From Clostridia bacterium (GTDB lineage Bacteria > Bacillota > Clostridia > Oscillospirales > Acutalibacteraceae): DNA of 48,710 bases. The stretch spans positions 1 through 48,710 of the forward strand of contig JAFQVM010000014.1 of assembly GCA_017407995.1 (NCBI GenBank), written 5' to 3'. A program made the translations under genes and the position numbers. The stretch's first letter is position 1; every line of letters begins with the position of its first letter. Below the pieces are notes generated by a model that did not search any database, was not told the DNA's origin, and was given only the letters and a program-made list of their open reading frames with translations. Positions 16,045 to 18,303 of the stretch are shown here, in pieces.

Positions 16045-16128
16045 AAAAATCATTATGTTTTTCATGGGTATTGATGACAATTGATTTTTGCGTTAATAAA
16101 AATGAATATAAAACAACAGGAGGTTATT

Positions 16129-17112
16129 ATGAAAAAATTTTTAAACAAGGAAAATGTTATCGTTGCAGGCATAATGGTTGTTATAGTTTTATTTTTGGGT
16201 ATCGTTATTGGTGCCGACCCAATAAAAGAATGGTTAAGCGAACCCATAGTATGGAAAGAAACTGAATATATTGAGATTGTACCAACAAGAATAAACGAAA
16301 TAGAAACAAATAAACTAAAGATTGAACTTCTGATACTTAACAAATCAGATATAACAATATCTTCGTTTGAATTTATCGCCATAATCAATGGTGAAGAAGT
16401 TAAATTCAATTCATCCTACGGCCGTGAATTTTATAATCAAACATATCAAACCTTAAGCACAGATATATATTTATCAACAAATCCGGGGAAAATATTTTCC
16501 AACGGTGCGGTTATCAGCGAGGATACATATAATAAATTATTGCATACCCCTCTGAATGAAATTGATTTTGACTATAAAACTGTTTCTCTTGACGGTGAAA
16601 AAGCAAATGGACGCGATTTTAAATTCAGAAACAACGGCACAGTAAAAATCATTCTAATCCTTGCGCTTTCTGCCGTTTTAGGTTATCTTGGAATATACAA
16701 AGTAAAGCAATCTTGGTTGCGTATTGTTTTTAAAGTTTGTGGCTTGCCAGCAATTTTATTTGTAGTAATTATAATTACTGTAATAGCGATCGGCGGCAGT
16801 GGTAAAGGCACCGGTGATAACGGAGCTAGCGACGCAGAAAATCGTTATAAGCGGGCTGCAAATTTGAAAGCAGGTGCTGCCATGCACGGAAACAAAGAGG
16901 ATGCCGCCAGAGCCCAGGCTGAAATGGATAAAGCCATGGCAGATATGATAGGTGCCTCATCAAACAACTCAAGTATGCGACAAGCACAAGAGCGTTATAA
17001 GAGAGCTGCAAACTTAAAAGCAGGTGCTGTCATGCACGGAAACAAAGAAGATGCCGCCAAAGCTCAGGCCGAAATGGATAAAGCTATGGCGGAAATGATA
17101 AAAAATAAATAA
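16129..17112 (+). CDS. Membrane protein with two C-terminal 36-residue repeats, function unknown
   Basis: This 327-residue protein was not recognised. A hydrophobic segment near residues 9-27 is followed by an extracytoplasmic-looking beta-rich region, then two membrane segments (ILILALSAVLGYLGIY and ILFVVIIITVIAIGG) and a cytoplasmic tail. The tail has two copies of a 36-residue unit beginning RYKRAANLKAGA and ending AEMDKAMA-x-MI, rich in Ala, Lys and Met and probably helical. AGGAGG fixes the start; the longer frame starts 48 nt upstream. It is divergent from the RecA-like/UDG-like genes and shares the mirror promoter region with them. Confidence 0.65.
   Translation: MKKFLNKENVIVAGIMVVIVLFLGIVIGADPIKEWLSEPIVWKETEYIEIVPTRINEIETNKLKIELLILNKSDITISSFEFIAIINGEEVKFNSSYGREFYNQTYQTLSTDIYLSTNPGKIFSNGAVISEDTYNKLLHTPLNEIDFDYKTVSLDGEKANGRDFKFRNNGTVKIILILALSAVLGYLGIYKVKQSWLRIVFKVCGLPAILFVVIIITVIAIGGSGKGTGDNGASDAENRYKRAANLKAGAAMHGNKEDAARAQAEMDKAMADMIGASSNNSSMRQAQERYKRAANLKAGAVMHGNKEDAAKAQAEMDKAMAEMIKNK
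16843..17100 (+). repeat. Two 108-bp tandem in-frame repeats
   Basis: Units at 16843-16950 and 16993-17100 are near-identical at protein level and differ at scattered, mostly third-position bases. They are separated by 42 nt encoding a Ser/Asn-rich linker. Confidence 0.9.
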
Positions 17113-17114
17113 AA

Positions 17115-17143
17115 GTATAAAACTCCTTTGTTGACAGATACTA
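17115..17143 (+). promoter_or_regulatory. Forespore-type (sigma-F/G-like) promoter of the truncated spoVT copy
   Basis: GTATA (17115-17119) and GATACTA (17137-17143) with a 17-bp spacer match sigma-F/G-type elements (GHATR and CATnhTA) except for one base. The same two elements with the same spacing precede the real spoVT. Confidence 0.6.
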
Positions 17144-17174
17144 GAAATGTTATCAAAATAAACAAAGGAGTTTT
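17119..17174 (+). promoter_or_regulatory. Hairpin hiding the Shine-Dalgarno, truncated spoVT copy
   Basis: AAAACTCCTTTGTT (17119-17132) is perfectly complementary to AACAAAGGAGTTTT (17161-17174), which contains the ribosome binding site. The -10 element lies in the loop, so only transcripts started upstream would carry both arms. Confidence 0.65.
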
Positions 17175-17181
17175 TGCATAT

Positions 17182-17361
17182 ATGAAAGCAACTGGGATTG
17201 TGAGAAGAATTGACGATTTGGGAAGGGTTGTTATTCCGAAAGAGATTCGTAGGACTATGCGAATCCGTGAGGGAGACCCGTCACATATAACATTGACACC
17301 TTTCGACAGGTTTTGTATTGCGATACATAGTGTGGTGGATAGAAAGAAAGCGAAGCATTGA
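17182..17361 (+). CDS. Truncated SpoVT-like protein (AbrB DNA-binding half only)
   Basis: This is a 59-residue ORF. Its first 33 residues are identical to SpoVT (17651-18190), up to GDP, then it diverges into an unrelated 26-residue tail. The AbrB swapped-hairpin fold needs about 50 residues, so its last strands and the whole GAF domain are missing. The 23 base differences from the spoVT copy over these 33 codons are all silent. AAAGGAG lies 11 nt before the ATG. It is either a remnant of a duplicated or acquired spoVT or a retained small protein. Its own forespore-type promoter suggests it could still be expressed. Confidence 0.6.
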   Translation: MKATGIVRRIDDLGRVVIPKEIRRTMRIREGDPSHITLTPFDRFCIAIHSVVDRKKAKH

Positions 17362-17467
17362 GCTCGCTTTAATAAACGATTGATTTTCTTGATAATAAAT
17401 TATATAACTACAATAACGAATCAATATAATAAAATTGCTTTTTAATGTACGATAAGGAGATTTCATT

Positions 17468-17581
17468 ATGCAGGAAAAATTAGATGCCATTTCTAAAGAA
17501 AAAGTCTTCTTTATCATATGTACAAACGAATTAGAAAAAATACCCGAAAGCATTCGTGAAAAAATGCGTGTAATTAAATAA
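17468..17581 (+). CDS. Small ORF, 37 residues, possible AAA+ fragment
   Basis: ATAAGGAGA lies 6 nt before the ATG. The peptide ends VFFIICTNELEKIPESIREK plus MRVIK, which resembles the sensor-1 strand and following helix of AAA+ proteins such as Lon (TAN-x-x-x-x-IP, then R-x-x-x-I). It may be a remnant or a small gene in its own right. Expression is not shown. Confidence 0.35.
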   Translation: MQEKLDAISKEKVFFIICTNELEKIPESIREKMRVIK

Positions 17582-17586
17582 CGAAA

Positions 17587-17615
17587 GTATAAATCTCCTT
17601 AATTCACAGATACTA
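17587..17615 (+). promoter_or_regulatory. Forespore-type (sigma-G-like) promoter of spoVT
   Basis: GTATA (17587-17591), a 17-bp spacer and GATACTA (17609-17615). In Bacillus subtilis spoVT is transcribed by sigma-G, which agrees with this assignment. Confidence 0.65.
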
Positions 17616-17644
17616 ACATCACGATTTGAAATTAAAGGAGATTT
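17591..17644 (+). promoter_or_regulatory. Hairpin hiding the Shine-Dalgarno of spoVT
   Basis: AAATCTCCTTAATT (17591-17604) pairs with AATT-A-AAGGAGATTT (17630-17644), with one bulged A. The pairing is kept relative to the copy at 17119-17174 although the arm sequences differ. Confidence 0.65.
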
Positions 17645-17650
17645 GTATAA

Positions 17651-18190
17651 ATGAAAGCAACAGGAATAGTCCGACGCATTGACGACCTCGGACGAGTAGT
17701 TATACCAAAAGAAATTCGCCGCACCATGCGTATTCGTGAGGGCGACCCGCTGGAAATTTACACCGACGCTGACGGCGAAGTGATTTTTAAAAAATATTCC
17801 CAGGTAGGGGAACTGGCATCGCTTACAGGACAATATGCCGAGGTTCTTAATAAGGGTACCGGTATGGCAGTAATCATCACCGACAGAGACAGAGTTATTT
17901 CTTGTGCAGGTATTCCGAAAAAAGAAACCATTGACAGACGTATTACTCAGTCGCTTGAAAATGTGATGGAAAGACGTACACCGTTCATCTGCGTTGAAAA
18001 CGGTGAGCGTTTCCGCCCTGTAGAAGGCATTGACAAGGATGCCGCTATCGCCTATCCGATAATCGGCGCCGGCGATGTTTCGGGAGCTGTTGTTTTGCTC
18101 TCAAACGATGATTTATCCGTCCCCTCTCAGACAGAGCAGAAGCTCGCACAGGTCGCCGCTTCTTTTCTCGGAAAGCAGATGGAAGAATAA
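17651..18190 (+). CDS. spoVT: Stage V sporulation protein T
   Basis: This 179-residue protein has an N-terminal AbrB/MazE-type DNA-binding domain (GIVRRIDDLGRVVIPKEIRR and following strands, to about residue 50) and a C-terminal GAF-like domain. Length and arrangement equal B. subtilis SpoVT, a forespore regulator that tunes the sigma-G regulon and spore germination properties. It is read from a sigma-G-like promoter, and the ribosome binding site lies in one arm of a hairpin. It ends with a strong terminator. This gene shows that the organism, or its recent ancestors, form spores. Confidence 0.95.
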   Translation: MKATGIVRRIDDLGRVVIPKEIRRTMRIREGDPLEIYTDADGEVIFKKYSQVGELASLTGQYAEVLNKGTGMAVIITDRDRVISCAGIPKKETIDRRITQSLENVMERRTPFICVENGERFRPVEGIDKDAAIAYPIIGAGDVSGAVVLLSNDDLSVPSQTEQKLAQVAASFLGKQMEE

Positions 18191-18192
18191 CA

Positions 18193-18235
18193 AAAGCTTT
18201 GCAAATCACCATTTGATTTGCAAAGCTTTCTTTTT
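18193..18235 (+). terminator. Terminator of spoVT
   Basis: A 16-bp stem (18193-18208 with 18214-18229) containing AAAGCTTTGCAAATCA is followed by CTTTTT. Confidence 0.85.
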
Positions 18236-18303
18236 ATGTAATCTTGAAAAAAACATCATCATAAGTTAGAATATAAAGTAAGATATCTGCGCAGGAGAAT
18301 GTC

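Follow-up and report, generated by a model that had tools for sequence, protein, structure and literature searches.

A predicted hairpin masking the ribosome site, overlapped by a forespore-like promoter, in two spoVT leaders of a Clostridia genome

In Bacillus subtilis, a large hairpin over the ribosome site of sigG (spoIIIG) was proposed to block the translation of read-through transcripts from spoIIG, and this large hairpin cannot form in RNA started from sigG's own forespore promoter (PMC5942855). A related design was described for gene e and I-TevI of phage T4, in which a late promoter lies within the DNA for the 5' part of an inhibitory hairpin, and the late RNA is without that part and is translated (PMC3014915, PMC2988022). 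For gene e, the design is supported by experiment, with a reported 100-fold effect (PMC2988022, PMC3014915). The masking design proposed for the spoVT leaders considered here is not new in kind, but has the same logic as that published for B. subtilis sigG and T4 gene e. There are differences: the gene is another one, and whereas the upstream transcript is known for sigG (spoIIG; PMC5942855), at spoVT it is one that we infer. The T4 genes, moreover, are a matter of phage timing, while spoVT is a matter of cell type. A search limited to a collection of open-access papers for spoVT together with a hairpin and a ribosome binding site found no paper.

The window, i.e., the whole stretch of 48,710 nucleotides that was analysed (contig C30), comes from a 1.67-Mb draft genome that is 86% complete and whose close relatives are often from animal guts. 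An earlier note on this DNA had described a forespore promoter inside a hairpin in two spoVT leaders, here called copy 1 (17115–17181) and copy 2 (17587–17650). The features of the locus are as follows:

16081..17112, + strand: upstream ORF from the ORF list, with no assigned function; its stop lies 2 nt before the copy 1 −35 box, making it a possible source of read-through
17115..17119, + strand: copy 1 −35-like box GTATA, sigma-F/G-like by motif only
17119..17132, + strand: copy 1 5' arm AAAACTCCTTTGTT, from the inverted-repeat search
17137..17143, + strand: copy 1 −10-like box GATACTA (motif), inside the loop
17161..17174, + strand: copy 1 3' arm AACAAAGGAGTTTT, from inverted repeat and fold, including AAGGAG at 17165–17170
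17182..17361, + strand: truncated spoVT of 59 aa, consisting of SpoVT residues 1–33 and a tail similar to the one that recombinase elements of relatives have at their left junction
17468..17581, + strand: small ORF of 37 aa, with its stop 5 nt before the copy 2 −35 box
17587..17591, + strand: copy 2 −35-like box GTATA (motif)
17591..17604, + strand: copy 2 5' arm AAATCTCCTTAATT, from the inverted-repeat search
17609..17615, + strand: copy 2 −10-like box GATACTA (motif)
17630..17644, + strand: copy 2 3' arm AATTAAAGGAGATTT, from inverted repeat and fold, including AAGGAG at 17635–17640
17651..18190, + strand: spoVT, 179 aa, with a DNA-binding domain and SpoVT_C, from the domain search
18193..18229, + strand: terminator-like hairpin 3' of spoVT, a 16-bp perfect inverted repeat that is terminator-like on both strands

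These coordinates confirmed the observation of the earlier note, with corrections. The sequence GTATA-17-GATACTA is present in both leaders (17115–17143 and 17587–17615), and we take the boxes to be sigma-F/G-like by their likeness to consensus sequences. AAGGAG lies within the 3' arm in both copies, the place of the ribosome site in the sigG and T4 gene e type, and the arms are unlike between the copies yet complementary within each, as had been claimed. The copy 1 arms form a perfect repeat (14/14 bp, 28 nt apart, with a 17-nt promoter spacer and the ATG at 17182), whereas in copy 2, which has its ATG at 17651, the 14 pairs are accompanied by one bulged (unpaired) A. The note had placed the whole promoter between the arms; this is correct for the −10 box and the expected start, which are in the loop, but not for the −35 box, since the 5' arm sits between the −35 and −10 boxes and shares one base with the former. 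In both leaders, the position of the promoter motif fits an RNA without the 5' arm, the start being predicted from the motif. The arrangement is indeed present twice, but the assignment of both leaders to spoVT had to be rejected: the copy 1 ORF encodes SpoVT residues 1–33 followed by an unrelated tail, and would make no full SpoVT.

Perfect 14-bp repeats with loops of 3–40 nt were found at 19 start positions in 8 clusters of the window, compared to none in 20 block-shuffled windows. Such a repeat is thus not unique in the window, and what stands out is its overlap with the promoter and the ribosome site rather than the repeat itself. Seven Rfam matches up to E = 1 were found in 16900–18300, none of which overlapped either leader (17115–17181 or 17587–17650), and a known RNA family was rejected on these grounds. 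Neither the upstream ORF nor the 37-aa ORF had a Pfam match at E ≤ 0.01; among the fetched loci, the latter matched copies of the same place only. The 3' end of the upstream ORF (16834–17100) is made up of a 117-nt direct repeat, with copies 87% identical, that encodes RYKRAANLKAGAxMHGNKEDAA.

The long RNA, which begins with the −35 box and runs up to the start codon, was predicted to fold at −20.2 kcal/mol for copy 1 (z = −4.84) and −17.7 kcal/mol for copy 2 (z = −4.46), with the ribosome site paired; none of 200 shuffles was equally stable for either copy. RNA starting after the −10 box folds at only −1.0 kcal/mol (copy 1) and 0.0 kcal/mol (copy 2), leaving the site open. The short sigG RNA of B. 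subtilis differs here in that a second, small hairpin was described at its ribosome site (PMC5942855). On paper, a switch between masked and open states thus exists, because the long folds pair the site and the short folds leave it open, in agreement with what the earlier note had proposed. In such a switch, the spacer DNA of a forespore-type promoter would itself encode the 5' arm, and the RNA would start in the loop. RNA from the leader's own promoter would then lack the 5' arm and expose AAGGAG, while RNA entering from the upstream gene would carry both arms, fold and hide it. SpoVT, a forespore transcription factor, would consequently not be made from stray transcripts. We consider it probable that the spoVT leader hairpin insulates translation from read-through in this way, and the interpretation of the note is in that sense partly supported. 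If so, hiding the ribosome site on stray transcripts would be a recurring way to confine forespore regulators (sigG, spoVT), and the leaders of relatives would supply natural arm variants for testing.

A simple scan, which considered loops of 3–8 nt only, found no + strand terminator before copy 1 or between the ends of the upstream ORFs and the leaders. With just 2 nt and 5 nt separating these ORFs from the GTATA boxes, transcripts would probably enter the leaders from upstream. Two features of the neighbourhood are among the findings that count against the masking reading. First, RNA from the copy 1 promoter, which is also forespore-like, would run into copy 2 and mask it. Second, two relatives (L060 and L045) have strong hairpins although the next upstream ORF is divergent; read-through does not explain these hairpins, since that ORF points away, unless the hairpin is older than its neighbourhood. 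Comparison of upstream-gene orientation with hairpin strength gave a mixed result, with the orientation assignable for 29 of 44 leaders from mechanically called ORFs.

The promoter motif was compared with the rest of the genome. GTATA-N15-CANAYANTA with at most one mismatch had 32 matches, compared to 31 for the reversed control, so that the loose motif is found no more often than by chance. The exact motif had three matches, two of which are the two leaders. Nineteen of 32 matches were inspected as control promoters, including both leaders, and one other was followed by a start codon that passed the filter. The genome has a sigG-like gene (G000:C21:104185-104940) that scores 416 bits against TIGR02850. 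This falls short of the curated cut-off, 457, which no genome among the 45 of the genus passes; 21 of them have a match above 400 bits. Traces of spoVT coincide with the sigG-like gene across these genomes: 18 have both, 3 the sigG-like gene only, 3 spoVT only and 21 neither.

Leaders of the same kind were collected from relatives. The 192 candidates, including partial spoVT copies, were reduced to 191 by removal of L253, which had no start motif, and to 145 at 90% similarity; five loci without an intact 5' end (L067, L069, L093, L097 and L258) had been excluded beforehand. Each leader was taken at the first start motif of its locus, so that L038, L054, L107 and L112 are represented by an upstream partial copy. 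A promoter was recognised in 73 of the 145 leaders and not in 72, and 44 had GTATA within 72 nt of the start; these 44 include truncated copies, and two (WIN1 and WIN2) are from the window itself. In a test of each leader against its own dinucleotide shuffles, 30 of the 44 GTATA leaders fell in the best 5%, and 14 were not significant, compared to 8 of the 72 leaders without a recognised promoter. Own pairing in the 44 was at −13.9 kcal/mol, as against −8.8 kcal/mol when upstream parts were swapped between leaders; for the 72 leaders without a recognised promoter, swapping made no difference. Where the context of the ribosome site differs, so does the 5' arm, as seen by eye for TCCTGCGG/CCGCAGGA in L083 and L252, and for the ACTCCC/GGGAGT arms of L101. 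The usual spoVT leader of sister species within the genus (GTATAAACCGCAAATTCTGACAAACAATAAC) has the promoter and no 5' arm, which counts against the masking reading.

We considered whether the repeat might act as DNA, with a dimeric regulator, perhaps SpoVT itself, binding both arms and controlling the promoter. The arms do overlap the promoter, the 44 leaders (a set cut at 72 nt) have the GTATA box 60–71 nt away from the start, and hairpins persist next to divergent genes. G-U pairs were not clearly favoured over A-C oppositions (27:18; a MAFFT alignment of 32 leaders, which misplaced the ribosome site, was left out of these pair counts), and so weak a bias would also suit an operator. However, the arms vary between lineages, while SpoVT residues 1–33 are nearly invariant in the copies read, and bulges and mismatches are common. 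Furthermore, of the 37 leaders with significant pairing, 34 have 4 nt or more of the ribosome site inside the duplex, a coverage that an operator would not need, with the reservation that a site so rich in G is favoured by the energy measure. (In all 37, the 5' arm lies before the expected start, largely by construction, and this was not used as evidence.) We regard a DNA operator as unlikely.

Another concern was that AT-rich promoter spacers match the purine-rich ribosome site by chance, with related leaders inflating the count. By the same own-shuffle measure, 17 of 92 neighbour genes in the fetched loci and 1 of 28 window genes fell in the best 5%; the neighbour genes thus exceed the expected 5%, but the 30 of 44 leaders exceed both controls (Fisher p about 2e-8 each). 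In a stricter test, the 5' arm was restricted to the promoter stretch and the arms were permuted among leaders. The observed sum for the 44 leaders was −488.5 kcal/mol, compared to −396 ± 15 kcal/mol for permuted arms, and none of 10,000 permutations reached it, with the caveat that related leaders remain among the 44 and that permutations ignore descent. Without the GGAG core, the observed value was reached in 4 of 10,000 permutations, and a per-leader Wilcoxon test was marginal (p = 0.054). For the 33 leaders outside the genus, the counts were 0 of 10,000 with the core and 18 of 10,000 without it. When the set was thinned to 20 leaders (≤80% alike), they were 0 and 103 of 10,000, and at 12 leaders (≤70% alike) 1 and 330 of 10,000, while the own-shuffle test was significant for 11 of the 20 and 5 of the 12. 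The signal outside the GGAG core weakens with thinning, which speaks for chance; with the core included, no more than 1 of 10,000 permutations reached the observed value in the thinned sets. In the genus alone (11 leaders), arm matching was not significant (p = 0.26 and 0.42 in Wilcoxon tests; 811 and 2941 of 10,000 permutations), and six of the 11 leaders, including both from the window, beat 95% of their own shuffles. Overall, a chance match appears decidedly improbable. Comparing relatives across the family, it looks as if pairing rather than sequence is selected, as the earlier note had claimed from the two copies, but the claim does not extend to the genus by itself. Complementarity in relatives, the absence of which the note had named beforehand as refuting, is kept at the family level.

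That the hairpin mainly terminates read-through transcription, rather than hiding the ribosome site, we consider highly improbable: the copy 1 3' arm does continue into TTTTT, but a T run is absent at this place from several hairpin-bearing relatives (G018 and L054, for example), and neither hairpin was scored by the terminator scan with its 3–8 nt loops.

The masking arrangement can also be compared with sigG in the genus. The check covered the best-scoring 12 of 21 strong sigG loci, which are closely related (L286–L297). Their leaders have a strong hairpin that includes a −10-like box and carries the ribosome site in its 3' arm; arms were visible in 11 of the 12, those of L288 being read by eye. 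The arms, AACCCCG...CGGGG, surround GGCAATAC, and 9 of the 12 loci reached p ≤ 0.05 against simple shuffles. With a narrower duplex window, ten of the 12 came to no more than −4.1 to −10.3 kcal/mol. The sigG leader of the genome under study had no such hairpin in the same check, which counts against the masking reading.

The first 33 codons of copy 1 encode the same residues as those of copy 2, with about 20 synonymous differences. The tail that follows is similar to what mobile elements have at their left junction in the relatives G020, G018, G011 and G026 (52–56% over 25–27 residues, E = 5e-6 to 1e-4), in a comparison in which the query included four residues of SpoVT itself (EGDP) and had further matches in modules for which no element is known (L122, L126 and L127). 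Modules of this kind, consisting of a forespore-like promoter, a ribosome site, 33 codons of spoVT and a short tail, are dispersed in several genomes of the genus (L114–L132, and 17115–17361 of the window), and when they are aligned, the similarity begins at the GTATA box. In 19 of 22 modules read (three of G030 were excluded), codons 1–31 have pS = 0.41 and pN = 0.015. These values fit purifying selection, but the signal may be inherited from intact genes. Partial spoVT copies with their own leader are also found 0.95–1.3 kb upstream of an intact spoVT in L038, L054, L107 and L112, resembling the situation in the window; in L054, L107 and L112, just 20–24 codons are open. Leader copies without spoVT codons behind them occur in L153 (G010), L157 (G025) and L148 (G004). 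These comparisons make a remnant of the dispersed or partial-copy kind, with promoter and hairpin intact, the best reading of copy 1.

SpoVT is active in the forespore of B. subtilis, and an action there was also described for Clostridioides difficile. To our knowledge, the known targets of intervening elements other than sigK and gerE are mother-cell genes. In the skin, SPbeta, vfbin, gin and yin elements, a sporulation gene is interrupted by an element with a recombinase and made whole again by excision, and sigK and gerE function in the mother cell (PMC5595907, PMC10747680). The spoVT gene is split in 9 of the 45 genomes of the genus, where about residues 28–179 share one reading frame with a large serine recombinase (domains read in one case). 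Close homologues of the recombinase (E ≤ 1e-100) are fused to spoVT in 9 of 9 cases in the genus and 8 of 9 among 300 genomes of the family, or 17 of 18; L258 is one more fusion, met by its spoVT part. Over all these loci (L158–L166, L258, L328 and L330–L336), the elements split spoVT near codons 31–34, and about residues 34–179 are joined to the recombinase. Excision is predicted to give back the ORF, as in the skin-type elements: when the halves were put together at their common core, a 179-residue SpoVT ORF resulted in four of four elements whose two junctions lie on a single contig. The sigG-like gene is kept in all nine split genomes, compared to six of eight with intact spoVT (draft genomes). 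A sigma-A-like promoter is readable by eye in the upstream stretches before the recombinase, so that nothing yet points to sporulation control.

In the window, there is no recombinase element between gene halves, and an intact copy 2 follows after 290 nt; the best recombinase match in the genome is only 30% identical and on another contig. Copy 1 was consequently rejected as a skin-type intervening element, which has the element present, while the window holds a junction-like remnant only. It is conceivable, though we hold it to be doubtful, that the spoVT of the family is the home site of dedicated serine-recombinase mobilizable elements, perhaps excised in development in view of the restored ORFs and the retained sigG-like gene, and that copy 1 is a junction scar that keeps the promoter, the masking hairpin and a DNA-binding mini-protein. 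If this were true, excision in the forespore would alter the germ line, in contrast to the known mother-cell cases. The recombinase line that targets spoVT also makes one ask how a spore former manages when one of its forespore genes is split. Searches limited to a collection of open-access papers for spoVT with "intervening element" or "serine recombinase" found no paper. The exception among the close recombinase homologues, L329 (73%), has a frame that runs into non-spoVT sequence, perhaps another target. The element in G026 (L113 and L114) carries a MobA/MobL relaxase, DarT and a macro-domain protein, and another element has TnpV at its left end.
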